Shown here piece by piece: positions 1-53,930 of a stretch of DNA of 64,000 nt. This DNA is from Gracilariopsis chorda. Taxonomy: Eukaryota > Rhodophyta > Florideophyceae > Gracilariales > Gracilariaceae. The position numbers were made by a program, and so were the translations under genes. The stretch spans positions 186,001 through 250,000 of the forward strand of contig NBIV01000107.1 in assembly GCA_003194525.1 (NCBI GenBank). Direction: 5' to 3'. The notes under the pieces were generated by a model. That model did not search any database, was not told the origin of the DNA, and was given only the letters and a program-made list of their open reading frames with translations. The stretch's first letter is position 1; each line of letters begins with the position of its first letter.

Positions 1-1367
1 ACTTAGTCGTGCAGTTGGGCCACTCCGTGGTGAAGCTTGACTTTATTGTTTGTTGGTCATTGGCTGCTCCAGTCATACTGGGATGTGATTACTACAACAG
101 ATTTGTCAACGCAATCAGGCCCCGACTTAGGTCTGTGGAACTCGACGACGGATCGTCGGTCTCGATCGTCCGTCGCCCGCTGAAGCGTGCCTCGCAGAAG
201 CAAGTGCCACTACCTGCTGCGCAAGAACCACCACCCGCGTCTCACAATTCCATCAAACCTCGAGTCGCAGCCTCTGTCTCTATACCGCCTGAGTCCCAAG
301 TCTGGGTGCAAGTCAATTGCCGTCAACACGGTTTTTGTGTTATTCAACCTCTGTCCTCGTTATACGAGAAATACCAGCTCGCGCTGGCAAACGGAATTGT
401 TCACGTTACTCCGGATGCTCCTTTCCGCATACTCGTTGCCAATCGTGGCCATCGCCCCCAGAATCTGATAAAGAACGAAGTAATTGGAAGCGTCAATCCA
501 CACCCCCTTGGGATGCTCCTGACAACGGTGACGACCACCGATGTTCTCGGAATCGCCGCCTCTTCTGAGGAAGCCACCCCCCCGACTGACGAACTATCGT
601 GAAAGGAGGGGGGGAAATCGTTGTTTTAACGTCGAACACCCCGACGAACTCGGAACTGACGGCCACAACTGTATCACAGGACAATGTTACAGCACGTTCT
701 GACCAAGTGGACCCCATAAAGGCACTCGAAGATATAGACCTCAACCATGTACCTGGGTCACACAGCGACATAGCCCGTGCAATGCTGCGGGAATTTAACA
801 CCATTTGGGATGGCTCACTCGGCGAGATTAATGCTACGGAACACTGCATAGATTTATTCCCGGGTTCAAGTCCGGTGGCACAACCCCCTGACAGGGCAGG
901 ACCGAATGCTCGGGAAGAGGAGCAGTCCCAAGTGGACAAAATGCTCCGCGCAGGTGTGATAGAGCCCGCTCAATCACCCTGGGCATCCCCAGTTGTACTG
1001 GCTTTGAAGGTTGACGGAACTTTGAGGTTCTGTGTCGACTATCGCCTGCTCAATGCCGTGAATGTTAGAGACACATATCCCATCCCTCGTATGGACGAGT
1101 GCATCGACTCCCTTGGAGCTGTTACAATGTTCACGGCCTCGGACGGCAATTGGGGTTATTAGCAGCTTAGACAAGAGGATCGCGGTAAGACCGCATTCAC
1201 CTGCCACGCAGGATCGTACAGCTACAAGCGGATGCCGTTTGGTTTGATCAACGCTCCCGCTACCTTTCAGCGTGCAATAGATATTCTATTGAACCACTTC
1301 AAGTAGCAGAGCTGCCTTGTCTACCTGGATGATATTATCATCTTCTCCAATAACTTGGACGACCAGT
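1..1367 (+). mobile_element. Ty3/Gypsy LTR retrotransposon fragment (protease to reverse transcriptase)
   Basis: Fossil of a Ty3/Gypsy retrotransposon that enters the window already inside pol. The first part, around 60-115, reads PVILGCDYYNRF, which resembles the end of a retroelement aspartic protease. A linker follows. Reverse transcriptase starts near 900 with the typical stretch AGVIEPAQSPWASPVVL, then FCVDYRLLNAV and TYPIPRMDE, and reaches the catalytic box YLDDIIIFS near 1320-1350. Similarity stops abruptly at about 1367, where unrelated minus-strand coding-like sequence begins. RNase H and integrase are not seen next to it. The copy is broken in a few places and truncated at its right side. 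No LTR is visible inside the window. The family call rests on established Ty3/Gypsy motifs; age is inferred only from the decay. Confidence 0.9.
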
Positions 1368-1369
1368 GA

Positions 1370-2960
1370 CATCACCCGAAACCTCTGCAGCGCTTAAACC
1401 GGCTCCATGGAGGAATTGGGCAATGACATTGCTTTCATTGACTGTACCCCCGCTGGGGAGTGAAGGCCTGGCACTCGCCGCGGGAGGACTGGGAACCGGA
1501 GGCACCCCTTCTGGGGAATCGTCTACGACCATGTCAGCAACATCTAGTTCCATGTCCTCCAGCTCTTGGGGTGTGTTATCTACCATCAGGTCATCCGCGC
1601 TATACGCGCGGTAGTAATCGTCGGAATCGACGTACCCAATTGGGTGGTCGTCCGGCACGTACCACAGTGTGTCGTGAAGTTCCCTTGCCTCCTCGGAAGA
1701 AATCTCCCGGAACTCCCAGGGATAAAAGTAGATGAAATCCCCTGTAAGGGCGGTGTTTCTATCAACACTGGGACCACCAGTACCACCACCGCCGCCGTCA
1801 AGCCGACCGCTCTGTTCCAGCGAGACCTCGCTGCAGTCAATACTGTCCATCAAACCAAGTAGTTGGTGTACCTAGTCATTGTTGGCTATACCCCCAAGGG
1901 AGGCCATGAGTTCCAGGTTGCCAATAGCGGCCTGCACACGCAGTTGGATGATCCACAGTCGATACTGGTCATAAACATTGGCGAGAATATACCCCGCAGT
2001 TCGGGCAACCCACTCGGTTACAATTACTGACCAAAGCCCTGACCGGGGATCCTGAATCAAAAAGGAACCGAGGTACGTGAGTGCCGGCAAAATCTCAAAG
2101 TAGCAGCCCCGGAAGGCCCCATGGAACCTCCACCATTCGGTAAGTGCGACATACCGACCCTGTCAGTGAGGCGGAGCAGTCCGCCCAATCTCCACGTTTT
2201 GATACGGGACGAAGTACCCGAGTCGGAATCGCCAGCGCCATTCATAACGGATGACGTTTTGAAGGAAGTTAAACCGGGACTGCCAGGAAAGGTACTGGAA
2301 CTCAGACCAAAGTATCGGTCGTTCCCAACGCAGAGCTTTTTGCCGTGCAGCGGGAACGTTCCTCCATGCGAGAGTTTCGAGGCTGTCCAGGCGTTCGCCG
2401 TAACCGGTTTCAAAGCGCGTGCAGAATAGGCTGACGTTGAAGTCAAAGCCGGTAGGCACTGGAAATTGGAAAGCCGCCCGGCTCTGCTGTTGATATGCAA
2501 TCCGCACCAGCGCTGCATGAGCCGCAGTCGCGGATTCTCCCGAGTTTCTTCGGATATGGTGCACTGGGATGGCGATTCGATTCTGCAAGTCCCACGAAGA
2601 GGTGAAGAGGCTGGGTAGATCCCTAGGCAAAGTACCGGAACCATTGGCGTAGGCCGTAACCAAGTCCTCGTTGAGGGCAGCGATAAGATGGAACCACAGT
2701 GCAAGCCGGAGCCGAGAGGGGTGATTCCGATTCATCGGATCTAAACCTACAAGGGCATTATAAGAAGGCCAAGTCGCCGCCGGCATCATTCCGAAAGGAG
2801 CCACCGCTGGTGGAAGTTGGGACCCATGCTGGGAACCTGCGCCAAGGTTGGCCGGTTGTGCTGGAGTTCGTCTCCCTTGTGGCAAGGGTACCGACCGGAA
2901 ACCGGTTGTGAAGTTCCCGACTTGAGTCGGTCCTAGAGGCTGGTTGTTCTTGTTCTTCAT
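1370..2960 (-). other. Uncharacterised long reading frame, possibly gag-like
   Basis: A single minus-strand reading frame runs from an ATG at 2960 towards 1370, with about two breaks. I do not recognise the product. The N-terminal part is rich in Gly, Pro and Gln. The middle is aromatic and Trp/Arg-rich (RYEWRWRFRLGYF) with helical-looking stretches. The C-terminal part is strongly acidic, with a glycine run and the segment DFIYFYPWEFREISSEEA. The frame ends where it meets the opposite-facing Ty3/Gypsy fragment, so its true C-terminus is probably lost. Position among retroelements and composition suggest a structural (gag-like) protein of a retroelement, but a captured host gene is equally possible. 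Function is not assigned. Confidence 0.4.
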
Positions 2961-3981
2961 ATTCCCGTTCGAAAGGGTGCGATCTGATTGAGTTGAGCAG
3001 GAAGTGGAGGATCGTGCACTTTGGAAGGCTGGTTCGCTGCTTTTGCAGGAGGGTTGTTTCTACGAGTCAGAGGTTTGACCCGGTGACCCAGAGAGGTTTG
3101 GACTTTTATCACCCACTTTCTGCTCGGACTCGCCCTCGTCCGTGGTTGCTTTCCCGACTAAGGAGGGAGATATGAAGTGCAATGCCCTCAGGGAGGGATT
3201 CCAGGTACTTGGTTGATTTCCCGAATGTTTCGGTAATGTATTTATGGCATTAACTACGACCAATAATAGTGGATTGGAAACGAGGGACACGGATGAGTCA
3301 ATTTGTCGTTGGCCACAATAGTGGGCATGAACCACCAAAGTGGAATACTTTAATTAATTTTATTTATTATTTTTACACCCATTTCTGGGATGGTTAGTAT
3401 TTCGTGGGCCAGCGAGTTGCCGTCGCACCAGTAAACCTCCACGAACAAGGGACCCCAACCTGGGCAACTGGCTCTAGACCCCACCGCCTTCGCGTGTTCT
3501 CTACTCCCCTTTGGAGGGAAGCACTGTCGCATAAGGGAGGTCTAACCCCCTTGCCTATCTAAAGGACCCGAGTATTCGAATTGTTATTCCAACTGCCTTG
3601 TTGTTCGCGTTTTATAAGTTTTATTTACCGGCATCGCCATTAGTGTTCGTCACGACACTCGTGACTCAGCTCCCCCTTATTTTCCCATTTACAGGTTAAC
3701 TTTCCCGCTAGCCACGGCTCGTGTTCGTGCATGCCACTAACGTGGAAACCACACCTCTGTAGAGAAAGACCACCCCCATTCACCGCTCTTGTGGATACCT
3801 GATTCTTGCCTCAACCTCCCTACGCAAGTGGCAACGAGTGGCCTTGGCCTTACAACGGACATAGTTGTGCGACTTCTGGGAGGACTCTACCCAAGTGGGC
3901 TCACCTCTAACGAGGAACGATCCCGAAGTTCTTTCGGTGCACTCCCGCTTCTCGGCATTGCACTACATTAGCATTTAGTGA
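2961..3981. other. Non-coding stretch, possible leader or LTR remnant
   Basis: I see no supportable gene here. Composition changes several times. The stretch 3350-3380 is AT-rich, and 3600-3780 contains TTTTATAAGTTTTATTT and C-rich pieces. It could be the leader or an LTR of the element carrying the minus-strand frame beside it, but I could not find a matching second LTR. Confidence 0.3.
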
Positions 3982-11600: not shown

Positions 11601-12390
11601 AAATAGATGGTACCAAGATGCCCATTAGAGGTAGTTTCGGAGATGAGGCCATATACGCCATCAACAGAGGGCAGTACTGAAGATGTGTTGAAGTGTGTGG
11701 TGGAGGCGGAAGTAACGGGACCAAATTGGCCGTCGATAAGTAGTGCGGGGAAGAAAGATGACTCTGTGAAAAAGGTGAGTAAGTACATGTGCTTGAGGCA
11801 GCGAATGAAACAGGCACACAGTGGCGTGGTTGAGTTCAGGATGAGAGCTGCAAGATACAAGATGTTTTCGTTGCTGAGCTCCGATTTGATTGCAAGATGG
11901 GGGTAGCCTAACAAAGGAACGGAACTGGAGACGGATCTGAAAAAGCAGTTGGAAGAAGCTCAGGCAAAACTGGAGCACGACGCGAAAGAAGGGATGCAAA
12001 TGCTAAGCAGGTGGAGAGTGAAGAAGATTGAGAATATCGTGTACTTGGGATCAAAGTTGCGTAGTTGTTTAAAGAACTTTTAATAAGAAGATTCGTAATT
12101 TATAAATGCAATGTTGGTGTTGGTGCTGGAAGAATTCATGAGGTATGAGGTGAAGGAGGAAAAGGACGGGCAGACGCACTGTGTGGATGGGACAGTGATG
12201 CATCGTGCGCACTTTGATGCGTAAATAGCGTCTGTGGTGACAGCAATGGAGAAAGTGGTAGGACGGGGGGATAGCAGATGTTGTTCGCCACGTTACATGG
12301 AAAGTATCTACTTCGTGCTGTGGAAAGTTTATGGAGGGTAGCGGGGGATGCATTGAAGGATGACCATGCCTTGGAATTTGATAACGATTG
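8661..12390. other. Decayed intergenic or element DNA without identifiable genes
   Basis: Only short open frames are found (under 100 codons on the plus strand), none with recognisable motifs. From about 11200 to 12340 the plus strand is purine-rich, and translations are Lys/Glu/Arg-rich and coiled-coil-like (for example MKLAQKDLERTRRKVKN near 11270). This suggests a heavily decayed coiled-coil protein. The piggyBac-like element interrupts this block at its right edge. Confidence 0.35.
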
Positions 12391-12394
12391 CCCG

Positions 12395-12500
12395 ATGCCA
12401 CTTCGGTGAAGAAATTTCCTCACCGATTTTTCGGGGTGAGGCCGGTGAGGCCGTCCCATATCACCGTATTTCCATCCCGGCTGCCGCACTGTTTGGTGAG
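12395..12500 (+). repeat. Left terminal inverted repeat of the piggyBac-like element
   Basis: Begins ATGCCACTTCGGTGAAG and ends GCACTGTTTGGTGAG. It matches the reverse complement of 17337-17442 over 106 bases with about 13 differences and no gaps. It is packed with GGTGAG/CTCACC hexamers in both orientations, which look like subterminal transposase binding sites. Confidence 0.9.
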
Positions 12501-13267
12501 CCTCACCACATAGTGGTGAGCTCACCCAGATATGGGACGAACTCACTCAGCAATGGGACGACGAACGCAGTTATAGAGCATGTTTTCGGCTTCAAATCAT
12601 AGCAGTAGCTTTTTGGATGACTTTCGCGTCGCTGGGCGATATGATTCTTGTACGGGTTGAGAATAGCTTGCATGCCAATGGAGTTCAATGACGATGATAA
12701 ACCATGGTAACGCATTGAAAGACATGCCATAACGCAAAAACTGTTCAATAGAGAACTACAGTTTGTGTCTAGGCTTATGAACGATAAAAGCTTCCTCCTT
12801 TGGTGTTTGGTACTGCATTCTTTATCAACACTCATTTGCATCATGAGCACGTTTCGTCTATACATTTACGCAAATTCTTGTAACACCCACAGGTTATGAA
12901 AGTCAGGAATTGCCAGTGTTCAAACCCCTTTTGACCACAATGTCTTTAACCGCATTCTAAGCTTGTGACATTTCTGTTGTTTACCACAGTGTACCTTCTA
13001 CTGAATGGGCTTGTTGCCGAAGTCGTTTCAGCGCCCGAACTCGTAGTAGCCCAACATCGCAAAGGCTTTTTCAGGACACTCGTCAGAGAGCCGCCAATTA
13101 AACTGAACAATGAATGATCCTTCTTTCGAAGGTCGTCAACGATGTTAGCATATTTCACACCTTGATTATGTCACTGGTAATCGATAGAGTTTAGGGATGA
13201 AATGATAATCTGAATTACTTCTATCACTATGATGCTCTCATTCGTACTTAGAATGTACTATATCCGT

Positions 13268-16200
13268 TCAGGGGACCTGTTTTCGAAGGTCTTCCAACTC
13301 AGCAGGGGGAATGGTTGCACGTACTAATACTCTATCCTTGTGCCATTGATCCCAGAAATTGGTACATACATCCTGTCTACATACAGAACACCATTGCTTC
13401 TGTCGTAATCCTCCTTTCTTCCAAAACTCTTCTCCGTTCTTACGTATACTATAACTGTATGAACAAAGTGCACAGTATGAATCCTTGCTCTTCACCCTCT
13501 TGTGCAAGAGTGATTCAGACAATTTTCTTTTCGTGTCCTCCGGTAGATTATATTTCTGAACCACATCACGTTGATACTATGGTTTCATTTCCATAATTAC
13601 GGTACTCTGATTGTTGGCTGATGGCAATGAGTTTCGGCTTATGCAGGATTGGGCTCCCGATGTCTCTGTTTGTAACAGAGCATTGTAATCTTTCGCCAGC
13701 TGTCTTGCATATGAAGCAAAAAACGCACAACGCGTAACAGCATGTCTTAACTCTCGATAACCTTTGCCACTCTTTACATCATTCCAGGTGTCCGGTAGAG
13801 CCCCACTGTTTTTGGCAAGGGATAATCTGTGTACGATAGCGGCATTGTCTACCTGAAAGCAAAGCAAACGGCCAATGATACTTACGATTGGATTCTCAGA
13901 GGAGTTCGGAATGCATAAAGAAGTCAGTGCACAACTGAATTCATCGACCCCTCCATTCAAATGGTTCGAGTAGACCAATCTTGTTGGACATATCATTCGG
14001 GCTGGCGGTAGCGTCCTTGTCAGTGAAACTAATCTCCGGTATGCCAGACTCAGACTATAGTAGGTTGCATAAGAATGAAGGTCCGTGGCATGTGAAGATT
14101 GCAGCATTTGATCATATTCTTTTGGGATGTTCTGCGCGTCTTTTCCGACCCATTCAAAAGCTCCCACCCTCAATGCAGCAAGTACATAACTGTACTGGGA
14201 TAGCAAAACCTCATTGAATACAACGATGGCAGTGCGTATTATCTCTCCAATGCTGCATGTGCTTCCCTTTGCCACAAGAAAACCAACCTTGTTCGCTTTC
14301 AAACATACTGCATGATGGAGACACTGCAGCCTATATTCGGTAGATGAAACCAATTGTTGAAACACTAGCCCAGCATCTACACTTCTCCCAACTCCAGATA
14401 TTAAAATGGTGGAAACAAATTTCCTTGATACATCTCTGGCATCCTCAGTAGTTCGAAAAGCGTTCATAGTTTTGATTTCGATTGCATAAACTTGACGGGT
14501 TTCTTGTTTGTCAAGATAGACCATCAAAGCGTCAAGGCTGTCGGATATCATCAAACCAGATCTCGAAGATATCAATCCGATAGTACGGATGTATTCAGCT
14601 CTGTATTTGAACGTATCATCTTTCATCCTAGTCAAGAGCTATCCTTGGACATTGTGACTGTCAAAAATGTCAGTAGTTTCATCAGCACTTGTTTCTCATG
14701 AAATGATCCGTCTTTCATACCAACGGTACTCACTAATGGTTTCATAACCCATAAATCCAATGAAACCTTGTAAAGGACCTTCAGTAATTTCTTCTTCGCT
14801 GCGATCACCTGCTCCTCCGCTGAAAGCTCTTCAGCCTCATTTTCAACGAGTACAACCTCTCCAGTTGGCACCCGTAGTTGGAATAGCAGGATTTTCTCTA
14901 CAGTCTGTGCTTTCCGTAGCGTGCTAGAAACGGGATGCACAATTTGCACAATTCTCGACATGGCAGCAACTAGCTCCGCTTCTGTCTTGGCGTTGAGAGC
15001 ATTTATCTCTGCAGAAACCAAGAATGTCTTCATTTGGTCAAGCTCGTTCTCCGATGGGGCTTTAGAGAGCAAAATGTTAACTACCTCGCAAAGATTCTTC
15101 ACTCGAAGTTCCAAGCGTGTTAAAGGTTCAATTTTTGTGTCAGGAAAGTGAAAATTACCGTATCCAGTAGATGTTTCTTTCACAATATCCGCGAGAACAC
15201 GAACGTTGCTCTCAAATTGTGTGCTAGTGCTCGAATAAAGTTAGAGGTGGTCCGATAGGTGAACTGAAAAGCTCTAGCTAGGAACAACCCAGGATCTTCG
15301 GACTGCAATGCGGTCACTTCATATAATCCACTGAAAAAAACCCAACCGACTTTGTATCTAGCCAAATAAAGTCCATATGTCCCTCCTGTATTTCGTATAC
15401 CCGATGAAATTGTTTGAGATCCGCACTGCTATTTAGCTGTTGACAGCCTGCCTTGAGCACCATTGTAAACTCCGACGACTTGAACATTTCATCATTGTTA
15501 TGATAAACAGAAACCACTCTCCCACTATAGCTCTTTCGGTATACAACGGCTCCTATAGGGCGTCCAGAAGCTGTTGTGGGCTTCCGACGAGCTGCGTAAA
15601 TTGCGCGACATCCCCTATTGTTTATCTCAACGCCCTTGTGCCAATTGCGAGTTGGAACATCCCGAAACGAAAACGGGTAGTCCAATGATTTTTTGTGCGT
15701 ACCCAGTATAGTTGCGCCAAGCTGATTTAAAAAGTTGGTGGATTCTTGATCGCTGTACTCTCGATCTGCAGCGAAAATATATTCGATCATACCCCTAATG
15801 GGACGAGCAGTAGGAACACCGTGTAGCAATCTGATCAACCGTTGCCCCATATCAATCGACATGCCCCCAACCCTGGTATAATGTTCAGCCTAGAACACAG
15901 GATTCAATTCTGAGCAAATAGCATTGTTAACCGGACCCAAAGCCTTCTTCGGGTTATTTACATGGCTCAGCAGTGTAATTTGCGCACCTGCTTGAGATCG
16001 CAAACGCTGATGGTTGTCATCCAAGCTAAGAATAGTCTGTCCAGGAACCAACAAAAATAACCAATTGATAGCAGCCAGCTCGTCCTCTAGTTCTGTGATC
16101 AACGGATTAGTTCTACGAGGAAAATTTGACCATCCCGAGCCAAACTGCCCCCCCCGTGGTCGTCGTTGGGTATTGCAGCACAGAGCAGACCCAAATTCCA

Positions 16201-17257
16201 AGTACCGTTTGCCTGAGACACCTATGTCGAAGAAAAACTCTTTGTTCTCTGAAAGAGTCATTGTAATAACTAATGTGCCATATGATGCAGCAAGCACATG
16301 TAAAATGATTACTCCTTTGCACTCAAACTCGTCTATTGGTTGCTAATGACGAGCCCTCAGGACGCGGTTCACATTACTAGCAACCTCCGTCAAAATATAA
16401 CTCGGTAGGAACACTTCGAAGGTCACCCATCGAGACAAACTTGAGTATCCCGCATTGCTTGCAGAAGACGACATTTCACGAATCTCTTTTGTCATGTTTC
16501 TTAACACTGCATTGGGCTTTTCTACATACCTTTTCCAGAGCTTTCGGTTAATGTCGTCAACATCTAGTTCCAATGATTGAAATGGTGGGGAATAGTTCCA
16601 CTGCTTTAAACCTTCTGCTAAATTTCCTCGGTCTGACTCACTATCCGGATTGGATTCATTTGGAACAGATGTATTGTGCGAATGCGAGCTAAGACTTTCA
16701 TCAAATGTGCAGTCCATTTTGTCATTGAAGATAGACGACCAGACATCCTCCACCGCGACATGCTGTGCTTCCATGTCATTTGAGGTCATAGAATTTAATG
16801 CATTGTTTGCAAACTGGCGCTATTGATGGGGATATAACTCTTTAACTTCATCGTCTAATATAACTTCATCCTCCAAAATGTTGGAACATGCGAAATCCGT
16901 TGAGGTCGTACTAGTAGATGCTCTGCTTTGGAGATCTTCTTCGTGAAAACTAGGATCCTCGTTACTGCTCTTTGTAAAACTTGAACCCTGAATAATATAA
17001 TCCATGTATTGCTCTAGGGTTTGATGGGGTTGATCTACTACAGAATGCGAATTTTGACCATCGGATAAGTTGAAAGAAGGTGGTGCACAAGTTTCCTCAT
17101 CACTAGGCATGGGTGGTGGCTCTTGAAGTGGAAACACAAAATAGTTTTGAGTCTCAAGACTGGAATTTGGGTCGCAAAGTGGGTTTTCATCTTCGGACAG
17201 AAACTGATCAGCATCATGTTCATTGCAGGAAAGACGTTTTGGCGGCGGTAGAGGCAT
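13268..17257 (-). pseudogene. piggyBac-like transposase with inserted PD-(D/E)XK nuclease-like domain
   Basis: Order from the N-terminus: an acidic Ser/Pro-rich region (17257-16820); a leader with FEVFLPSYILTEVASNVNRV (about 16430), matching the piggyBac region before the core; ILSLDDNHQRLRS near 16020 (first Asp); EYIFAADREYSDQ and LGATILGTHKK near 15700-15790 (second Asp); FIWLDTKSVGFFS near 15350; a region absent from ordinary piggyBac (15200-14250); NGGVDEFSC near 13945, equivalent to the GGVD motif with the third Asp; and a C-terminal cysteine-rich domain CALC...CSVC..DVCTNFWDQWH at 13330-13485, the DNA-binding zinc module of piggyBac transposases. Most of it lies in one frame. Four in-frame stops there (16820, 16343, 15890, 13577) are all TAG. 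Frame changes occur near 15340 (in a T7 run), near 15230 and near 14635. The copy looks dead unless some of these are spliced or recoded. Confidence 0.8.
14250..14760 (-). other. PD-(D/E)XK (YqaJ-like) nuclease-like domain inside the transposase
   Basis: Between the transposase segments FIWLDTKSVGFFS and NGGVDEFSC lies a stretch with the layout of a PD-(D/E)XK nuclease. A conserved-looking MKDGSFHEKQVLMKLL helix is at about 14690-14720, then GLMISDSLDALMVYL with the metal-binding Asp near 14540-14555, then VYAIEIKTM, giving the E-x-K pair near 14475. Finally YRLQCLHHAVCL near 14320 corresponds to the Y-x-x-Q helix of lambda-exonuclease/YqaJ proteins, followed by GFLVA. The motif order and spacing fit the family; catalytic activity is inference. 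The frame changes near 14635, so domain and helix are in adjacent frames. Confidence 0.65.
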
Positions 17258-17336
17258 TATTGTGCCAACTTCTGGCGGGAACAGAAAGGTTGAATTGGTG
17301 AGTACTTACGTCGCGTTCGGTAATTTTTTCAGTGAG

Positions 17337-17442
17337 CTCACCGAACAGTGCAGCGGGCGGGACGGAAATACGGCGATGTGGGACTGCCTCACCGCCCTCA
17401 CCCTGAAAAATCGGTGAGGAAATTTCCTCACTAAAGTGGCAT
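17337..17442 (-). repeat. Right terminal inverted repeat of the piggyBac-like element
   Basis: Partner of the left repeat. Read on the minus strand it starts ATGCCACTTTAGTGAGG and ends GCACTGTTCGGTGAG. The transposase ATG lies only 80 bases inside it, so this repeat probably also holds the promoter. Confidence 0.9.
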
Positions 17443-17891
17443 AGGGGTAGAGTTTTTGAAAGAGACCGGAGGAAGGTTTATGGGAGCTTGGGGAGAAGGT
17501 ATACGGCTGCAGTATGGATACAGTCGATGGAGAAACTGTACTTGGCAGTGAGTAAAGAATACTTTTAGAAGCACATGAGAAGGCTGCTAGGTGCTTTTTT
17601 GGAACACACTTGCAGAATGCTTCAGTAGTGTCTGGACTATTCCATGCTTTGCTGTGAACCCAGCTGCACTATGATAATACAGTTTATTACGCTCTGTACG
17701 CGGCCAGAACATCATTGCTGTTGAAGAACCAAAGTGTTTACACGATGTCGGATTTCCTGGATGTGCACCAGGAAATGTTCTTTCGCTTGTACGCAAGGCA
17801 ACCCAATCGTCGTGAAAGGGGATTGTTGTGACTCCGAGTCGCAACAGTGCAAGGTTTGGCCTTGCCTTGCCAATCCCAAAATGAGAGTAAT
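17443..17891. other. Gap between the piggyBac-like element and the DIRS-like element
   Basis: Probably the 3' untranslated and terminal part of the minus-strand DIRS-like element, plus a short piece of the DNA into which the piggyBac-like element inserted. I searched for inverted terminal repeats matching the region beyond 22500 and found none by eye. Confidence 0.3.
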
Positions 17892-19091
17892 TTACTCGTG
17901 GCGGGTTCTGAGAATTTCAACGTCTTTGTAATTAAAACATTGCCGTAGAAGTTTGTCAAAACAATCTGGGTAGCCAGAAACTCGGGTTTGCATCTCGGTT
18001 GAAATTTTGATTCGAGTAACGGCAGAACGGCCGTTAGTTAAATACCTTTGCAGTGACGAAAACGATTTCCATCTGCCCGTACGTGCAATAGTTTTCGCAG
18101 AATGGCCAGCAAGGAAATCGGTAAGCGCACCCCCAATTCTTGCTGAATGCGTAGTGAATCGATTTGACTGTATACCAAAATGCTGAGCGGCTTGTTTAAA
18201 AAGCAAGTTATACTTCTCATAATGCAAGTCAAATAAGGTTGACTCTGAGTGGCGTGAGAGACTTTCGAGGTAACTTTGCAACAGGGTTATCACAAATTTG
18301 TCTCGAATCGGTGTAAACTGCATGGGACCAGTCTTTGATTTCTCAATATTAATCCCGATGATCTGGCCTCCAGCGTGGGAAATACGCACATCTTGAGGTA
18401 GAACCACATCACATCTACGTAGTGCAAGAACCTCCGAGGCTCTCATGTAGGTACACCATTGTACGCAAAGTGCAACTGCAGCGTGCAAACAATTCTGCGA
18501 GATGAAATATTGAGCAAAAGCCATCATGAAGAGCTTTGTAAGAGGCAATGCGGATAAAGGAGGGTTCAACTTATTCCAACCAATCAATGCTCGTCGAGAT
18601 AACTTGAAATGGAGGTCTGGGGAGGGTACAGATAACGACAGAAAGGCTAGAGCATAGACTACCTGTTGACGTTGACCTGCTGAACGGTTTTCATTGCACG
18701 CTTCGTGCAAATAATCGACAAAGCACTCATCAAGCTCGTTTGGCGAACACGGTATATATCGGAGCGAATGTTTGAAATCAGTGTACGCATTAACATACAA
18801 ATCTCGTGTATTCGGAGACAGGGTGGCGGCAATAAGTGGATACTTCTCGAAGAAATTTTCCGTAGGAAGTTTGAAACCGTCCATTCGATTGGGAGTGCGA
18901 AAATATCTGCTGCTGGTCTCTCGATGCTTCAAGCTTTTCTTCTGGATGCCGAAGTTACTGATAAGCGATTTCTTCCATTGCCGTTCAAATGCAATGTGAG
19001 AGAGACTGAGTCGTGGCCTTGCAATGGGGTTCATCCTGGCTGAATCGTTTTCTGCGTGAGTCGGCCTGGATGGAAGCCGTACGCTACTCAT
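17892..19091 (-). CDS. Tyrosine recombinase of the DIRS-like element
   Basis: A 399-residue protein with the catalytic landmarks of tyrosine recombinases. An N-terminal SAM-like binding domain includes SPNTRDLYVNAYTDFKHSL. The box I arginine is in CTYMRASEVLALRRCDV. A lysine follows in NIEKSKTGPMQF. The box II pair is in THSARIGGALTDFLA (H-x-x-R), followed by GRWKSFSSLQRYL, which holds the nucleophile tyrosine. In DIRS-type elements this enzyme replaces integrase and inserts a circular intermediate without target duplication (established for the class). The ATG at 19091 overlaps the upstream RNase H reading frame by 8 bases. The frame is open throughout. Confidence 0.9.
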   Translation of the reverse strand: MSSVRLPSRPTHAENDSARMNPIARPRLSLSHIAFERQWKKSLISNFGIQKKSLKHRETSSRYFRTPNRMDGFKLPTENFFEKYPLIAATLSPNTRDLYVNAYTDFKHSLRYIPCSPNELDECFVDYLHEACNENRSAGQRQQVVYALAFLSLSVPSPDLHFKLSRRALIGWNKLNPPLSALPLTKLFMMAFAQYFISQNCLHAAVALCVQWCTYMRASEVLALRRCDVVLPQDVRISHAGGQIIGINIEKSKTGPMQFTPIRDKFVITLLQSYLESLSRHSESTLFDLHYEKYNLLFKQAAQHFGIQSNRFTTHSARIGGALTDFLAGHSAKTIARTGRWKSFSSLQRYLTNGRSAVTRIKISTEMQTRVSGYPDCFDKLLRQCFNYKDVEILRTRHE

Positions 19092-21657
19092 AGCTTCCCG
19101 CCTTAAAACGTGGTCGAGAAGGGCCGTCGGCGGGGTTTAGGGTTGTAGGTACGTGAACGAACAAAGGTTCTAAGTCGTGAGCGATGCACACTCCTGCGTA
19201 TCGTCGACATGGGAGACACAGACTCGAAGATGAAGAGCGGCCCTTTCGAAAGGCGCCAATAGTAACCATAGAATCCGAAAGTATCAGGACGCGCAGACCA
19301 GTTATGTCAAAGGAGGCTGCCCATTCCAAAGCAAGGACTGCAGTATGTGCTTCAAGAACATTAATATGTTCATCTCTTCGCCATTTGTGAACAAAAGCTG
19401 TCTTCCAGTGGTGATTTTGAACAAAGTAAAACAGCATTGCGCTTGCATTCACAGACGGGCCTTCAAAAGCAAGGGCAGTAAGATTCGATATCCACAAAGT
19501 GTTGGCTTTCGTATACACAACTGCTCCGGCGTCGGGGGAGGCGTCGATGGCGATGACATGATTCCAGTAAGGTCTATTGAGACGAATGGATGAAAGCGGG
19601 AGCAGTCTTGTCAGCAATGTTAGCTCTCGAAAAACGGCGACTTGAATTGAGTTGTTGACCTTCGAAGGCTGTTCCAGAAATTGAAAGGTGCGATAAAGAA
19701 TAGAGAGCAAAGGCCGGCATCCTAAAGCGATCCAAATAAGTTTTCCCACAGATGAACGAACTCTTGATTCTTCCAAGGGGGACTAGATGATCGCGGATAC
19801 GCTTGTGAGCGCAGAGTTCAACTTTTCTAGTTTCGGTCGCAAGATGTGTCTTTGTAGGCACCAGTTCCATCCCATGAACGTGAGCTGATTCTTTTCCAGT
19901 TCACCGGGTGGTGATGACTTTGCACGTTTGATAGGTAACTGGTTCCGTTGAAGCACAGACTCAACGAGGTTTTGGAGCCTTATGGCATCCTGGTCGCTCC
20001 ATCCTGCAAGTACGAAGTTGAGGTCATCAATAATGTGTAGTATCAAGGAACAGTTCGATTTCAACTTCACTGTGCCGTTCTGTTTGTGCAAAAGGATTGG
20101 GAAAGGGAAAGTGGATGTAAATCCGAGTGTGCGCGATGTGTCTTGAAAAATGCGAAAAGCTTCGACGTAGCATGACTCGACAAAGGTATGTCCAATAAAG
20201 ACTGACCATTTGAATCCCATTGGCAATGTACGTTGACAGGGTCGCATCTTCTGAGCTTGACGGGGCCTGAAACCCAAGGATCGTTCGATGTATCTTTGGA
20301 GTTTTCCGGAAAGATCTCCAAATGCAATCTGAGCCAAAGGGAACAAAGCGGCTAGGTTGAAGGGAAGACGAATGTTGTGGAACATATTTGAGATGTCAAG
20401 GAAAAAGCTGGACAAACCGGGTGTCGTATCAGAGAGAAGTACAGCAGAAAAATTTCCAGGGTTAGGCAGAGACATGTGAGGTGAGTCAGGAATGCAAATG
20501 TTTTGCACCCTCGGCCAGCTGATTAACCGGTCTTTCTGTTCGTCTTTCACGACAGCAAACGAATTCAAGGTAAGATGGTTCGCAAGCTCCCTATATGAAG
20601 TATTCTCTTCATCAACAAGTGACCACTGCAACATTCCAGAATCAGAGAGGCGGAGTAGCATTTGAGGGTATTGATTCGGAGCACAATGGATGCGAGGTGG
20701 TAGAACGTCAGCACTTGATATGTACATCTGAATGGTTTGGAGAAGCTGATTGAAACCATCCCCGAGAAACAAACGCTGGACTTGTGTTGGCATTCGGCTG
20801 GTACAAACAGAATGATCAGATGACGTCTCGGCTGGCAAGTCCAGACGAGCGGCCCGAATCATCGTAAAATCACCCCGTACTAGACCCGCCGACTGGAGAG
20901 AATCAAGGAACTGAGTAGAGTCTCGTACGAGCTCGTCTTCAACATGAAGAATTTTGGTGGACTTCCTTGCGACCCAGCGTGGGAAAGAGAGGCTCTGCAC
21001 TTCGTGACGTCCGTAGGCCTTGGTGAAGTCAGAATGTCTCTTCACGATCGAACGGACTGCTGCTCTGGTTTGAGTTCGGGGGATATTGTTGAAGCTTTTA
21101 GGCTTACTGTACCCGAGGAAAAGGAAATCTAGAAAAGCGAGAACTTCAGTAATGTGCGATCCAGCGCCGCAAAGGGGCCCTTTTCGTAGAAACTGAGTCA
21201 AAGGAAAGGTTCGAGGCCTGACAGGATCAATTACAACTGAGGTGTTTCGGTGGTGTTGTCGCGATGATTTGCTCTGGGTCTCTTGGGTCTTTGAGGTCCC
21301 CTCGTTGGTCGCTTCGCTAAACTTCGTACCGCATTTCGAGCCTTTGATGCTGCAGATATGTGCCGGTTGACGATTGAACGCATAGCTGGAACTCTTATAC
21401 CAGTGTCGGGATACACGTCCAGAGAAGGTAGGACATGTTGTAAAGCTTCGTCGCGAGTTAACGGACTGGGCCCGGAAGTCAAATTCTCTACTTCCAAGAG
21501 AGCCCAGAGTCTTCGAAGGGCTACTTCCGTCCATGGAGCTTTTGTGACTGCTTCTTCCATGGCAGCGAATGTGCAGAAGTGAAAGTGAAGACATCTCGCC
21601 AAAGTGAGGGCTTCTACTTCTGAGCTGAAGGGTCTTCCGTCCGACTGGCGCGTCCAT
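19084..21657 (-). CDS. Reverse transcriptase and RNase H of the DIRS-like element
   Basis: The reverse transcriptase core lies in about 20900-19800. It has FAVVKDEQKDRLISWPR near 20530, SSFFLDISNMFHNIRLP near 20380, QRTLPMGFKWSVFIGHTFVE near 20200, and the catalytic box LHIIDDLNFVLAGWS near 20010, with IDD in place of the usual YxDD. FMGWNW follows. RNase H is in 19776-19084, with VIAIDASPDAGAVVYT (first Asp), a glutamate in NVLEAHTAVLALEWA, and ILSDSMVTIGAF. It ends with LNPADGPSR, a motif typical of DIRS and pararetrovirus RNase H. The upstream frame overlaps the gag-like gene and its true start is unclear. Confidence 0.85.
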
Positions 21658-33031: not shown

Positions 33032-34969
33032 CTCTCCATGATAATGATTTGTTCCTCTATGAGGGGGGTGTTCTTGATTGAATGGAGGCGTTGCGCCATA
33101 AAATCCTCTTCCACGCCCCCGTTTGCCCATCCAAATCGCCCATTTGGCGCAACGCCTCCCTGCCATTTAAAAAATTCAGCAGCAGCAGCAGCAGCAAAGC
33201 GTTCAGTTAATTAGCTGCTGCTGCTGCAAGTTGACTGTGCAATGGCTGCTGAATGGCTTGCAATACAATCAAATTGTTGTGCCAGCCACTCAGCAGCAAA
33301 ACCCCGCCTGTTCATTCCGACACGTGGCAAATTGCACTGCGCCAGTGCAGCGCATTCCGACACGTGGCAAATTGCACTGCGCCAGTGCAGTGTATACTGA
33401 AGTTTCATTGCAGACTTGCCTGCAACAGACGTATATACTGCACTGGCGCAGTGCCCAATGCATCTCGCTTGCTGACCCTAACCACTTTTTTGCATCCCAT
33501 TCAGGCTTGGCCAATAGCGCAGTGTCGTAACCTTTTGCTACTTTGGGCACTGTTTGCTGGCCTGGGACGTAGGCAAGGCCGAGCTCGTGTGCAGGTCGCC
33601 ACAAGAGTAACCCACTAAGTACCACGGATCTGGGAAAAGTCAGGTGCTCTTCTGTGGTATACTGGTCGTTTGACGGCGATCAAAAAGTCTGAGGGTTTAC
33701 CGGACCTAATACCAGCTTGCTGTGCAGGGTCCGGGGCGGCCGCCGTGTCGTACCTCTTGGGGCCGGAAAGCACACTTCGGTGTGTGAGTAAAGGCAGACC
33801 AATCCTTACAACCGGACTGCTTCCAGTGGTGCCGCAGGTGTACATGGAGGCCGAGCCAAGTGGAAATGTGAGACGAGTGTACACAAACATTCTCAACGAA
33901 TTGCCGTGGAAGAGTGATCTGTGGACATTGTGCTCGGTTCAAGTGCTGTACCTCACGGAACAAGTACGCCAAGCGGATGATCCGGCATTTGCGTCGCTGT
34001 TGCGTTCCATTGCACGAAACACAATATCCAACAACGCTCCACTACCACTCAGATCTACCGGTGGCATGCAAACCGCCTACCAATTCCTGTGGAAGTGGCT
34101 CACAACACGACGCAAGGAGGATGTGGATCTCAGCAAAATGCTCATTGCCTCCACAAATCAGTTGGTCGATGAACACAATGCGGCAGCGCTGGATCTGTTT
34201 CCTGGTGAACGCTTCACTCTTCCGCCAGCTACGACAGTACAACCTGACGGTGTACCAAACTCAGAGCCCGACGTCACCAATACCTTTGTTCCCGAGTTTG
34301 CGTATCAGTATGCGCCTACTGGAGTACCGCCTCATAACTTGGACTTGAAGATTGGTGTGCCAGTTATGGTCATTCGGAACGTGCTGCATCCCGCTGTGGT
34401 CAACGGAAAGCTGTTCGTAGTCGTGCGTGTCGATCAATTTACGATGCAGGTGGCTCGATTCGACGAGAACAGACAGGTGCTCGAACGACAGCTCCTGCAT
34501 CGTATCGACTTCGAGTTTTCTTTCGCAGATATTCGCAAGATTCGAAGGCAGTTTCCCATTCGTCTCGCGTTTGCAGCTACCGTTCACAAAGGACAGGGAA
34601 AGACGTTGGATGGCTTGGTTGTGGATGTGCGATCCAAGTTCTTCTGCGCTGGTCAGTTGTATGTCGCATTTTCGCGCGTTCGAAGGAACGACCATGTGCT
34701 GCTCCTGCATGATCCGCAGCTTACACCCTCCAATGCGCACACAATTCATCCCATGCCTGTTCCCATCGCCAACCCAGTGCTGCCTGAAGCTATTCAGTTC
34801 TGCATCCCTCCACAACCGTAATCATATCTCTTGCATTCTTCTTTCATTGAACTAAACTACTTGCTTTTCTGCTTTTGCATTCTCCACCCTCTTTTTTCCT
34901 CACCGCTGTTTATCACTCCTCCACTGCGGCGCGCAGCGCCGCCCGCGGCCGAAGGCCGCTTCCTCTTGT
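33032..34969 (+). mobile_element. Helitron deletion derivative carrying a helicase C-terminus (unit 3)
   Basis: Begins with the 5' sequence of the family (CTCTCCATGATAATGATTTG, then the GAGGGGGGTG box) and ends GCGGCCGAAGGCCGCTTCCTCTTGT-type, with CTTGT at 34965-34969. Its left part matches the 5' leader of the 6.6-kb autonomous copy on the minus strand (43.8-44.67 kb). From about 33820 it jumps directly to the last third of the helicase gene, so Rep and the helicase N-terminus are missing. A 40-bp tandem repeat lies at 33313-33390 and a CAG tract near 33180. Confidence 0.75.
33670..34821 (+). CDS. Truncated Pif1-like Helitron helicase (C-terminal part)
   Basis: An open frame of 383 residues. 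The first 50 or so translate the element's 5' leader and are not helicase. From QVYMEAEPSGNVRRVYT onward it is the C-terminal half of a Pif1-family helicase: LPLRSTGGMQTAYQFLWKW, KIGVPVMVIRNVLHPAVVNG, the motif V-like FAATVHKGQGKTLDGLVVDV near 34570-34630, and the motif VI-like FCAGQLYVAFSRVRRND near 34650-34690. Walker A and B are absent because of the internal deletion, so no helicase activity is expected. The frame has stayed open in spite of the loss, which suggests the deletion derivative is fairly young. Functional role unknown. Confidence 0.7.
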   Translation: MTAIKKSEGLPDLIPACCAGSGAAAVSYLLGPESTLRCVSKGRPILTTGLLPVVPQVYMEAEPSGNVRRVYTNILNELPWKSDLWTLCSVQVLYLTEQVRQADDPAFASLLRSIARNTISNNAPLPLRSTGGMQTAYQFLWKWLTTRRKEDVDLSKMLIASTNQLVDEHNAAALDLFPGERFTLPPATTVQPDGVPNSEPDVTNTFVPEFAYQYAPTGVPPHNLDLKIGVPVMVIRNVLHPAVVNGKLFVVVRVDQFTMQVARFDENRQVLERQLLHRIDFEFSFADIRKIRRQFPIRLAFAATVHKGQGKTLDGLVVDVRSKFFCAGQLYVAFSRVRRNDHVLLLHDPQLTPSNAHTIHPMPVPIANPVLPEAIQFCIPPQP

Positions 34970-38191: not shown

Positions 38192-41100
38192 TTAATTCAA
38201 TGAATGAAGAACGCAAGAAATATGACTACGGTTGTGGAGGAATGCAGAACTGAACGGCTTCAGGCAGTACTGGGATGGCGAGGGATACAGGCATGGGATG
38301 GTTTGTATGCGCACTCGCGGATGTAAGCTGCAGGTCATGCAGGAGCAGCACATGGTCGATCCTTCGAACGCGCGACAATGCGACATACAACTGACCAGCG
38401 CAGAAGAACTTGGATCGTAAATCCAAAACCAAGCCATCCAACGTCCTTCCCTGTCCTTTGTGAAACGTAGCTGTAAAATCGAGACCAATGGGGAGCTAGC
38501 TACGAGTCATGCGAATGGCTGCGAAAGAAAACCCGAACTCCATGCGATGCAGGAGCTGTTGTTCCAGCACCTGTCCGTTCTCGTCGAATCCAGCCACCTG
38601 CATCGTAAACTGATCGACACGCACGAATACGAACAGCTTTCCATTGACCACAGCAGGATGCAGCGCGTTCCAAACTACCATAACTGGCACACTGATCTTA
38701 AAGTTCAAGTTATGAGTTGGTACTCCAGTAGGCGCATACTGATATGCAAACTCGGGAACGATAGTACTGGCGAGGTCAGACTATGGGTTCTGTCCACCAT
38801 CATGTTGTACCGTCGTAGCTAACGGGAGAGTGAAGCGTTCAACAGGAAACATATCCAGCGCTTACACATCATGTTCATCGACCAACTGATTTACGGACAC
38901 AATGAGCATTTTGCTGAGATCCCCATCCTCCTCACGTCATGTTCTGACCCACTTCCACAAGATTTGGTAAGCGTTTTGCATGCCACCTGTAGATCTAAGT
39001 GGTAGTGGGGTGTAGTTGGATATCGTGTTGCGTGCAATGGACCGTAACAGCGACGCAAATACCGGATCATCGGCTTGGCGTATTTGTTTGGTGAAGTACA
39101 GCACTTCATCCGAGCACAATGTCTGCAAATCACTCTTGCACGGCAACTTGTTAAGAATTTTTGTGTACACTCGTCTCAAATTTCCACTCGGCTTAGCTAC
39201 CATGTATACCTGCGGCAGAAATGGAAGCAGCTGGGAGTAGTGGCCGGATAGAACGATGGCCAATCGCCCAAACGGACCCTGGTTTTGCATTCCAGTGCAC
39301 CGAAGATCTTTTAGCAAAGCGTCCACGAGTTCAAAGAGCTTTCGTGAGAGCATGGACGCCTTATCCAGGAATAGCAGTTGTATTTCAAGTAGCAGTTCCG
39401 CAATTTGAGATGAGGGTCCGTACTTGGCCAAAGAAACTGCAGTGCTCCTTGCACTGTCCTTGTAAGGTACACTCATTCCAAGCAGCCTATGTAAAGTGCG
39501 GCCACCTTCGTACCACGAAGCTGGAATGCATGTTCTAGCAGTCATTTCGGTGAGCATTCCTTCCGACTCAGCGATACCGCAAAGGAGGTTGAGCACGTAT
39601 GTATTTCCGATTCCTGCGGATCCTTGCTCACAGAACACCTTTACCGCGGCGCTTGTTCGCTCCTGCAGCGCCAGCCGTTGTTGCAATGCAGCAATCACGA
39701 AGTCAATGACTTGTCTTTGGCGAGGGTTTAAGGTGGCGTACCTTAACTGCAACGATGACGCATTTCGAACCACTCGCACGTCTCGATTTGCTGTAGCTCT
39801 ACTCGCCTCAGTCAATGCTGCATAATCCTGCTGTAGATGGTGGGAGAAGAAGCTGTGATCGCAAAGTAGTCGTCCACCGTGCCGCTCTGAGATCTCTAAC
39901 ACACGTTGATACATTTCTTGTTTCCGTTGCTGCTCATCGTCTGTATGTATGTCACTTCATAGCGCCTACCAGATGTTGACAGCCATTTTCTGTGGGTCTA
40001 TGCCTTGTTGATATAGTGTGACAACCAGACGTCGTAGCTCGGAGAGCGTGCTGTAGATATGCACTGCTGCTTGGAACGCAATATCAAACTCGGATCCGTC
40101 CGCAAGCAGTCCGCTTGCAATCATCGTTTCACGATACGTTCTATATTGCTGTCTGTTGAGAGTACTTGCGTCTTCATAAGAGCTAGAGCTCTGATTCATG
40201 AGCAGCAAGCGAAGAACAAACAGCCCAATGTCAGACGCTGACACACTTCTGATCCTTGCGACGCACTGCTCATCGTCCGTGCGCTCTACCACGTACATGG
40301 GCGGATCGCAGTCGTTTGTGGGCACCTGAGTGATATCTTTGTTGTTTTGATTAAGCAAACGTGCAAGAAGCGTGCGATACAAACGCACCTTTTCAGAATA
40401 AGAAATGTAGTCGACGTTTGCATATGCTTCGTGCCTAGCAAAGTATCTCTCCAGTGTACACGGCTGCGATGCAGAAAGGATTTGATTTGGACCTCTAAGA
40501 AGAAATGTTCGCTCTCCTTCTAAGTAAATGGACAGTCGCTCTAATTAAGGTACGATATGAACATGTCGAAACTCGAAAATCCTCCAAGCTGCGTTGACAG
40601 CGCCCATCACACGTGCTCGCATGTATGTACGAATGTCGTTCTGCACCTGCGGCTCTTTTCGCTGCTCGTTCTGCGTGCCTTTATCATTAGCACCGCTCAA
40701 ATTGAGCACCACGTCCTGAGGTTTGGGCTGTTTGAAGGCGTACTTCATCAGATAAGCCACTGTGTCCCCTCCTTGCATGCGTTCTAGGTTGATATGGGAG
40801 CGGTACTTCTTGTCAGAGTTGGGTTGTATGGCACAATCTTGAAGTCTTCTTGCCTTCTTCTGCGGTAGATCACGCGATTCGAGCCCACTTCAATGTACGT
40901 CTCTAGCACAATCATGTTGCTATCATATCCAAATTTGCACAGGCCAGCGCGATTCTGTCAATAGGGGGGGTGGGTGTGCCTGAGCATGGAACGAATGAGG
41001 GCGCGCAACGCGTCGTCTTTACCGGGAAGGGGCACTTCTGCACGAAGCAGATCGTCAATCAAGTCAAAGTCTTCAATCACACCCCCCTCGAGCCACAAGA

Positions 41101-53192: not shown

Positions 53193-53195
53193 GGT

Positions 53196-53285
53196 AGTTG
53201 GAGTTGGGGGGGGAGTTGGGGGGAGTTGGGGGGAGTTGGGGGAGTGGAGGGGGGGGAGGCGGGAGGGGGATGGGGATGGGGGGAG
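53196..53285. repeat. G-rich tandem repeat just upstream of the kinase start
   Basis: About four copies of an 11-base unit GTTGGGGGGGA-like on the plus strand, starting four bases from the kinase ATG and running into GGAGGGGGGGAGGCGGGAGG. Four or more G-runs lie close together, so a G-quadruplex is possible. On the kinase transcript the region is C-rich 5' untranslated sequence. Confidence 0.7.
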
Positions 53286-53930
53286 GGACGTTAAGTATTT
53301 GAGGTTGGGACGTGGGGGGGGTGGGGGTGGGGTGCAGGCGGATGAAACGGGGGCGTGTGTTTGGGCGCGCTGATGTGGCGGAAGGGACGGCAGCCGTTAC
53401 GTGACGCGTGACGCGCGTCGCGGTGGCCGTTTGGAACGGCGCCGTGGCGCACCGTGACGCGCGCCCGTGGCTGTTGCGCCGCGCTGCATGTGGCCGTTGC
53501 GCCGCCGGCACGCGCCACAGCGCGCCCACGTGTGCTCGGTGCACAGCGCGTACAGCGTGCACACGTACGTGGGTGTGGTGGATGATATATGTGAACTTCA
53601 CACTGTGAACTGATGATGGTAATTTGCTTCTGGCCGCGCTCACCGGTAGCGCACGACTCGTCAGAAAGTACGGCTTGTCGTGGCGCCGCTCACCGCCTGC
53701 GCCGCCTGCGCCGCCTGCGGCCGTCGGGGCTCGTCAAGTCATGCGCGCGTGCAGCGTGCACATTCGCTGCGCACAAGTCGTCACCATCTCCGCCACAGAG
53801 AACGCTACATGAAAATGATAATTTAGACAGTCCGAAACTTACTTGGCAGCGCTCACATACAGTACCGTACAGAGCACAGAAAGAAGAAATAAAAAAAAAA
53901 AAATACAGAAACAGCCTATCAAACAAGCAG
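53286..53930. other. Intergenic region between kinase and Hint-protein gene
   Basis: About 640 bases of GC-rich sequence with many GCGC/CGTGGC repeats around 53400-53580 and GCCGCCTGC repeats near 53695-53720. It should hold the kinase promoter and the 3' end of the Hint-protein transcript. A run of 14 A near 53888 lies just downstream of the latter's stop codon. No gene is supported. Confidence 0.5.

Follow-up and report, generated by a model that had tools for sequence, protein, structure and literature searches.

A red-algal piggyBac-like transposon family with a putative YqaJ-type nuclease nested in its transposase, represented by a decayed copy in Gracilariopsis chorda

The DNA considered here, referred to throughout as the window, is a stretch of 64,000 nucleotides from the red alga Gracilariopsis chorda (contig NBIV01000107.1, positions 186,001 to 250,000; G000:C107:186001-250000), and genome searches were made against the 91.3-Mb assembly. 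The window holds a whole, decayed transposon copy whose transposase gene lies on the minus strand. Compared with its relatives, this copy belongs to a family that very probably encodes one protein, in which a second nuclease motif set is nested between the second and third of the three catalytic Asp residues of the transposase (D1, D2 and D3). The parts of the window copy are as follows.

12390-17447, gene on the minus strand: the whole decayed transposon copy, its ends set by eye from a comparison of both terminal inverted repeats (TIRs).
12391-12501, plus strand: TIR at the low-coordinate end, which is the 3' end of the gene; repeat search.
17336-17446, plus strand: TIR at the high-coordinate end, the 5' end of the gene; repeat search and gapped blastn match.
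16820-17305, minus strand: coding piece 1, an acidic N-terminal region, with a Met and MPLPPPKR at 17234-17257.
16343-16819, minus strand: coding piece 2, counterpart of the helical part before D1, in the frame of piece 1 after a stop.
15890-16342, minus strand: coding piece 3, with the first catalytic Asp block LSLDDNHQRL (16001-16030) and NNPKKALGPVNNA (15920-15958), from alignment with relatives.
15314-15889, minus strand: coding piece 4, with the second catalytic Asp block FAADREYS (15752-15775), GTHKKSLDYPF (15671-15703) and VVYRKSYSGRVVSVYHNN (15494-15547).
15180-15428, minus strand: a short piece, coding in a different frame, where the YqaJ-type domain probably begins at SEDPGLFLARAFQFT (15258-15302), which aligns to WFVLRQFRVTGTSAGKIL of L071, a copy of a second family.
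14632-15240, minus strand: coding piece 5, with the linker within the nuclease domain and then LWVMKPLVSTVGMKDGSFHEKQVL, which carries the first nuclease Glu (14683-14754).
13577-14638, minus strand: coding piece 6, nuclease part, with GLMISDSLDALMVY including SDSLDAL (14516-14557), VYAIEIKTM with the E-x-K (14465-14491) and YRLQCLHHA with the Gln (14309-14335).
13577-14638, minus strand: coding piece 6, transposase part, with NGGVDEFS, the GGVD with the third Asp (within 13934-14002), and RLLCFQVDNAAIVHRL (13823-13870).
13268-13576, minus strand: coding piece 7, the C-terminal Cys/His zinc module (13334-13396 and 13448-13477), in the frame of piece 6 after a stop.

The TIR arms are 111 nt long and 87% complementary, as found by the repeat search and gapped blastn, and the flanks of the copy (GATT and TAGA) differ, so that no target site duplication (TSD) is left. 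The gene is a pseudogene with four in-frame stops, at least three frame changes and eight open pieces. Pieces 1 to 4 share one frame with stops between them, the 15180-15428 piece, piece 5 and piece 6 each lie in another frame, and pieces 6 and 7 share one frame interrupted by a stop. In none of the eight pieces did Pfam show a DDE transposase or a PD-(D/E)XK nuclease (seven pieces at an expectation value (E) of 1 or below, the 15180-15428 piece at 0.1 or below), and it is only in relatives that the region of piece 2 yields sub-threshold matches to the N-terminal part of DDE_Tnp_1_7. This copy is dead, and with broken frames and no Pfam match to either domain it is by itself insufficient proof of the architecture.

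The relatives carry the argument. Searching the genome with a 353-aa nuclease piece gave at least 96 matches and with a 191-aa DDE piece at least 84, which, grouped at 6 kb, fall into at least 70 nuclease loci and at least 68 DDE loci. A DDE part lies within 6 kb at 53 of 70 nuclease loci and is lacking within that distance at the other 17; conversely, no nuclease part is found within 6 kb at 15 of 68 DDE loci. Among the loci without a partner only C307 was read, and the genome may contain a nuclease-free sister lineage. L049, on contig C177, has an intact and uninterrupted frame of 1351 codons that holds both modules; C147 has a frame of 1155 codons, preceded across a stop by a 176-codon N-terminal frame, and C86 an uninterrupted frame of at least 948 codons. 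Database searches recovered proteins P0001-P0007 through the window piece, P0008-P0013 through L049 and 17 matches through alignment A2. Eleven of these relatives are full length (1203-1391 aa), and one relative, a 1315-aa protein of Chondrus crispus, bears the UniRef name PiggyBac transposable element-derived protein. All organism-named relatives are from red algae (Agarophyton chilense, Gracilariopsis chorda and Chondrus crispus), and the label of P0008, a complete open reading frame (ORF) of a TRINITY transcriptome assembly, suggests that a relative is expressed. Searches of phages (tblastn), viral contigs and GTDB genomes gave no matches, so that at those sensitivities the fused protein has no visible source in phages, viruses or prokaryotes.

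Two candidates for variant forms of the element were rejected. C283 and C306, in which the ExK reads NxR, might have represented a subfamily with an inactive nuclease; both copies are broken and almost identical to each other, with ESID in place of GGVD, and no TIRs were found for either. C307 might have been a copy lacking the nuclease, yet its frame exits the nuclease into unrelated retroelement-like sequence (the insert was read by eye), which is an interruption.

In L049 the order of motifs can be followed along one chain. The transposase front contains S-L-D416-D-D-H, NNPxKALGPV, D501 in FAADRGY, GTHKRSLDYPF and YRESxSGR; the middle contains SEDPGWFLARAFxFTSRTT (residues ~665-683), a linker, GMKEGxxNE868, SPD928, E945-x-K947 and YRLQ996CxHH; and the end contains PARMIRPTxLVYWNxLKGGVD1123, followed by YCSLCS...WCxxCxQxxCxxCWxxWH. 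The distance from D2 to D3 is thus 622 aa (D501-D1123), against 101 aa in piggyBac (D346-D447). Alignment A3 comprises 18 members, and conservation was counted on its 11 full-length rows, the other seven lacking much of the C-terminal half. Across these rows the nuclease Glu, Asp, Glu, Lys and Gln are kept in 11, 10, 11, 11 and 11, and D1, D2 and D3 of the transposase in 11, 10 and 11; the row without the nuclease Asp, P0017, has also lost D2. Among 27 distinct and mostly decayed genome copies the same five nuclease residues are present in 25, 26, 22, 25 and 25, and, counting copies with letters at the site, D1 is present in 21 of 23, D2 in 20 of 24 and D3 in 26 of 27. The GTHKRSLDYPF-type block after D2 and the RPTALVYWNxLKGGVD-type block are present in the relatives (P0024 has GGTD), the C-terminal zinc module keeps six Cys and one His in all 11 rows, and a B-box match exceeds the cut-off in P0012. 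A SAP match with an E of 0.1 or below falls in the linker of 3 of 18 members and exceeds the cut-off in P0012 and P0013.

These alignments bear directly on the original prediction, made from the window letters, of a piggyBac-like transposase with a PD-(D/E)XK nuclease-like domain in its core. Every piggyBac landmark that it quoted (three Asp motifs, GGVD and a zinc module) is present on the minus strand of the window and recurs in the same order in relatives, and L049 and the 11 full-length database proteins are intact homologues that appear from their motifs to contain both domains. The insert between the second and third catalytic blocks is real, although at ~520 residues it is larger than the ~300 proposed, and the nuclease motifs lie where they were quoted while the domain begins further upstream, at SEDPGLFLARAFQFT. 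The D...ExK...Q layout of the YqaJ type also holds: the residues concerned are near-invariant in the full-length relatives, where the E-x-K and Asp could have proved variable and did not. A profile match was expected at 14250-14760; that segment of the window has no PD-(D/E)XK match, and it is the relatives P0008 and L071 that exceed the YqaJ cut-off.

In P0008 the Pfam YqaJ match has an E of 2.1e-5 and 25.3 bits against a cut-off of 22, and one of 18 members matches a PHROG of RecE-like exonucleases (E 8.6e-4), the only phage family to be matched reasonably well. A genome search with the YqaJ profile hit 12 places. The best seven score almost alike, have frames of 799-1115 codons and are absent from the list for the window family. 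These seven, six of them without stops, appear to form a second family (L071, C113:55775, C104:9405, C129:25209, C137:110058, C18:408598 and C409:13830). The copy that was read, L071 (G000:C19:189800-193600, ORF 390-3737 on the plus strand), has a 1115-codon frame with TLDDD, TADRGY, a match to YqaJ positions 1-146 of 150 (E 3e-7), KGGVD and a C-terminal zinc module, and the nuclease Glu, Asp, Glu, Lys and Gln are present in it too. Its alignment to A3 with hhalign extends over 733 columns, from before D1 into the C-terminal region, with an E of 3.9e-27. Only ~70 residues separate the first nuclease motif from the Glu in L071, against ~200 in the window family, so the linker is absent there. 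The YqaJ match of L071 starts at WFVLRQFRVTGTSAGKIL, which aligns with WFLARAFxFTSRTT and thereby marks the likely start of the nuclease domain in the window family. The second family is deeply diverged and, as far as sequence comparison can tell, shares the DDE-YqaJ-DDE-zinc plan; its more open frames suggest that it is the younger of the two.

The termini were examined in ten copies of the window family for which both ends were found. TIR tips read CCCC, and TIR matches range from ~65 to 230 bp. Perfect 4-bp TSDs flank six of the ten copies (C177 and C37, TTAA; C147, TTAC; C86 and C91, TTAG; C5, CTAG), and one-mismatch flanks were seen at C1 (TTAA/CTAA), C255 (ATAA/AGAA) and C60 (TTTT/TTAT). 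The TIRs of C37 (G000:C37:221098-241356) lie 20 kb apart, ~15 kb more than the length of an element, with matching TTAA flanks; this looks like one element interrupted by a nested insertion, and without it the count of perfect TSDs is five of nine. An uninterrupted copy of the target repeat beside L049, with a single TTAA at the junction, serves as an empty-site control, and the C1 copy occupies the same site of the same repeat as the C177 copy (both by eye). This repeat, at L049 5795-6162 and in the G000:C1 flanks, has inverted arms of 127 nt that are 99% alike, and it is possible that it is a preferred target of the family. In the single L071-type copy whose ends were read, the tips are CCCTAGT and ATAT stands on both sides.

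We read the window element as a decayed member of a red-algal, piggyBac-like cut-and-paste family whose transposase, with three catalytic Asp residues (DDD), would be helped by a nested YqaJ-type nuclease that processes or trims 5' ends, and we regard this reading, judged from sequence, as evenly poised. In piggyBac, the catalytic residues are D268, D346 and D447 (PMC2533014 and PMC7351741, both in part), and the route runs from a 3' nick through a hairpin with the flanking 4 nt, and its opening to a 4-nt 5' overhang, to joining at TTAA (PMC7351741, in part). The insertion domain of piggyBac (372-433) breaks into the RNase H fold behind its fifth strand and helps to contact the TTAA hairpin and the target (PMC7351741, also PMC6900584, both in part). 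The DDD site of the present family would cut by the same route, and the nuclease, since it lies between the same two blocks as that insertion domain, may be held near the hairpin and target. There it could remove or trim 5' ends, for example a donor-derived 4-nt 5' overhang that differs from the new target: the overhang would always fit if the site were invariably TTAA, and at NTAN-type sites it often would not. That the nuclease performs 5'-end processing of some kind seems rather probable from this analysis; that it trims the overhang specifically is a more tentative suggestion. More speculative still, and on present evidence somewhat unlikely, is the full picture of two cutting sites in one chain, with a hairpin-making DDD site and a 5' nuclease that erases the donor overhang, frees the element from TTAA and keeps clean 4-bp TSDs, in an arrangement old enough to be found in at least two diverged families of one red-algal genome.

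Several observations weigh against this reading. Mutated or mismatched flanks leave piggyBac integration at TTAA unaffected (PMC7351741, in part), so that host enzymes may suffice, which argues against a role in trimming overhangs. Pfam YqaJ is matched at E of 0.1 or below by only 2 of 18 members of A3 (a piece of P0008, and P0018), and the window family therefore sits at the edge of that profile. Searched by sequence against solved structures, L049 and the nuclease piece of L071 had no match, and A3 gave only three weak and unrelated ones. In six close copies the ratio of nonsynonymous to synonymous polymorphism (pN/pS) was 0.81 for the D1-D2 part (44:17 changes) and 1.43 for the nuclease (34:7; Fisher p 0.24), figures that come from one subfamily of largely dead copies in which most changes are found in a single copy. 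On the transposase side, no member passes the cut-off of DDE_Tnp_1_7, and the 5 of 18 that match at E of 0.1 or below do so in the N-terminal part of the model. Comparison of the D1-D2 part alone with conventional piggyBac proteins by hhalign gave E of 0.081 and 0.58, which is not significant, and an ordinary piggyBac protein of this genome matches the structure of piggyBat (E 1e-5), whereas the window family matches no transposase of known structure; piggyBat is covered in PMC11707139 (in part).

An alternative with the same architecture would have the nuclease resect 5' ends at the donor break, such that homologous recombination from the sister or homologue recopies the element. Enzymes of the lambda-exonuclease and RecE type are 5'-3' exonucleases that feed recombination. 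The RecE-like PHROG match fits such a role, as does the past amplification implied by at least 70 nuclease loci. However, piggyBac donor sites are sealed seamlessly through complementary overhangs (PMC7351741, in part), and we consider donor resection unlikely, though worth keeping in mind.

Whether the nuclease is under selection to cut is a question on which the genome copies give mixed results. Ratios of nonsynonymous to synonymous divergence (Ka/Ks) were calculated against L050 in eight comparisons covering five distinct copies: for the D1-D2 part they were 0.42-0.49 in seven and 8.51 in one that had hardly any synonymous changes, and for the nuclease they were 0.58-1.46. The order is reversed between L049 and C307 (0.77 for D1-D2 and 0.13 for the nuclease, the latter over only 67 codons), and the three pairs usable for both parts gave 0.75/0.69, 0.66/0.85 and 0.99/0.80 (D1-D2/nuclease). 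Within-genome ratios thus give constraint on the nuclease no support, and the one sign of selection comes from conservation across species. These ratios invite the proposal that the YqaJ-type domain serves chiefly as an insertion domain for DNA binding or scaffolding, or can be dispensed with, and makes no cut during transposition. In other DDE transposases, insertion domains at this place serve to shape DNA and not to cut it (PMC7351741 and PMC6900584, both in part), and the nuclease pN/pS of the six close copies would suit a relaxed domain, although it is not significantly above that of D1-D2. Against this stands the near-complete retention of the five nuclease residues in the full-length relatives, and their presence in L071, together with the fact that the one row without the Asp has lost D2 of the transposase as well. 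We think a non-cutting role distinctly unlikely.

The case for kinship to piggyBac itself is one of sequence resemblance: the motifs come in the same order, profile matches exist but are weak, TIRs start with CCC and TSDs span 4 bp. The best DDE_Tnp_1_7 match, that of P0019, covers model positions 1-141 with an E of 9.7e-5 and 22.3 bits against a cut-off of 22.4, and the GGVD region of L071 matches positions 303-349, the last 47 of the model (E 0.048). Conventional DDE_Tnp_1_7 transposases are abundant in this genome (at least 119 matches listed). When the region from before D1 through D2 was aligned by hhalign to five conventional piggyBac proteins that this genome encodes, both Asp residues fell in register over 222 columns, with an E of 0.0015 and an HH probability of 17%; a poorer conventional reference set gave 0.081. 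The helical part before D1 alone gave 4.9e-4, against 0.081 for the D1-D2 part, which places the bulk of the signal upstream of D1; the nuclease, linker, D3 and zinc regions scored 0.17-0.88 against two conventional targets. Two further features count against the kinship: TSDs vary, in the manner of NTAN-type sites, instead of being fixed as TTAA, and the position of piggyBac D450 is Ser in all 11 full-length relatives. D450A is cited as active in vitro, however, so that D450 is no residue of the triad (PMC2533014, in part). A TSD control from conventional piggyBac elements of the genome could not be had, their ends not being placeable.

The transposase might instead represent a separate DDD superfamily that resembles piggyBac, in which case the nuclease would be no addition to piggyBac proper. 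The sub-threshold profile scores, the weakness of the catalytic part when taken alone, the Ser and the variable TSDs all lean that way. Pulling in the other direction are the in-register alignment from before D1 to D2, the GGVD and GT blocks, the CCC tips, the TTAA duplications of some copies and the piggyBac-derived UniRef name of the Chondrus member, and on this balance we judge a separate superfamily to be improbable.

Finally, the notion that two neighbouring pseudogenes or chance motifs were read as one protein, which the eight pieces of the window copy and their lack of Pfam matches might invite, has virtually no chance of being correct and is refuted by intact frames (1351, 1155 and at least 948 codons), by the 11 full-length relatives and by the DDE part near 53 of 70 nuclease loci.

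Elsewhere in the window lie features of other kinds. Just outside the transposon, a 414-aa frame at 17892-19136 (minus strand) matches Phage_integrase, a tyrosine recombinase family (E 6.8e-7), and is probably another mobile element. Pieces of PIF1-like helicases occur at 33619-34818 (plus strand; Pif1_2B_dom, E 1.9e-7) and 38940-39956 (minus strand; PIF1, E 2.5e-21). A 669-aa frame at 53934-55940 (minus strand) ends in a Hint (hedgehog/intein) module (E 9.7e-20) and adjoins a protein kinase gene at 51586-53733.

The nested nuclease is undescribed in the open literature searched, in keeping with the original prediction, whose author knew of no described family with this architecture, although a Repbase entry may exist; the kinship of the transposase is already named in UniRef for the Chondrus member. 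DDE transposases often hold an insertion domain between the second and third catalytic residues, which in the cases described in PMC7351741 and PMC6900584 (both in part) shapes or binds DNA, and the open literature searched yielded no case of a full second set of nuclease motifs in that position. The family may let one test, on natural material, why piggyBac is bound to TTAA and what function YqaJ domains have in the transposons of eukaryotes, and the intact single-gene copy, together with a relative named from a transcriptome assembly, leaves the question open to experiment.

Among known systems, the family resembles the piggyBac superfamily (Trichoplusia ni piggyBac, piggyBat and PGBD) in the order of an Asp block, a second Asp with GT.KR, P..(W/Y)N..GGVD and a C-terminal Cys-His module, and also in its CCC-starting TIRs, its 4-bp TSDs (TTAA in some copies) and its one long frame. 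It differs in what separates D2 from D3 (a three-strand insertion domain in piggyBac, here ~520 additional residues that include the YqaJ-type nuclease), in the Ser at D450, in TSDs that also read TTAG, TTAC and CTAG, in a protein about twice as long and in TIR matches of ~65 to 230 bp. PiggyBac is mentioned in red algae, and a few non-TTAA TSDs in beetles, in PMC12732532 (in part). ISL2EU, of the PHIS superfamily, is likewise a eukaryotic DNA transposon that pairs a DDE transposase with a YqaJ exonuclease domain; its YqaJ domain is in a separate second ORF, however, beside a DDE-HTH-THAP transposase related to PIF/Harbinger, with an AT TSD and animal hosts, and the role of extra ORFs in PHIS groups is called unknown (PMC4482050, in part). 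Here, by contrast, a single ORF nests the nuclease in the DDE core and the TSD is 4 bp long, and no THAP match was listed in the Pfam scans of the window pieces and relatives. KolobokP is another DDD/E transposon that also encodes a nuclease, but a small one of the His-Me finger, homing type with a different fold, in an element with long terminal direct repeats (PMC9587614, in part). The nuclease itself shares with the YqaJ/RecE/lambda exonuclease family (PF09588, phrog_434) the Glu, SPD, E-x-K and Gln in the same order. Known members of that family are, to our knowledge, stand-alone phage or bacterial recombination enzymes, unlike the present domain, which is nested in a transposase and, in the window family, carries a long linker of its own.

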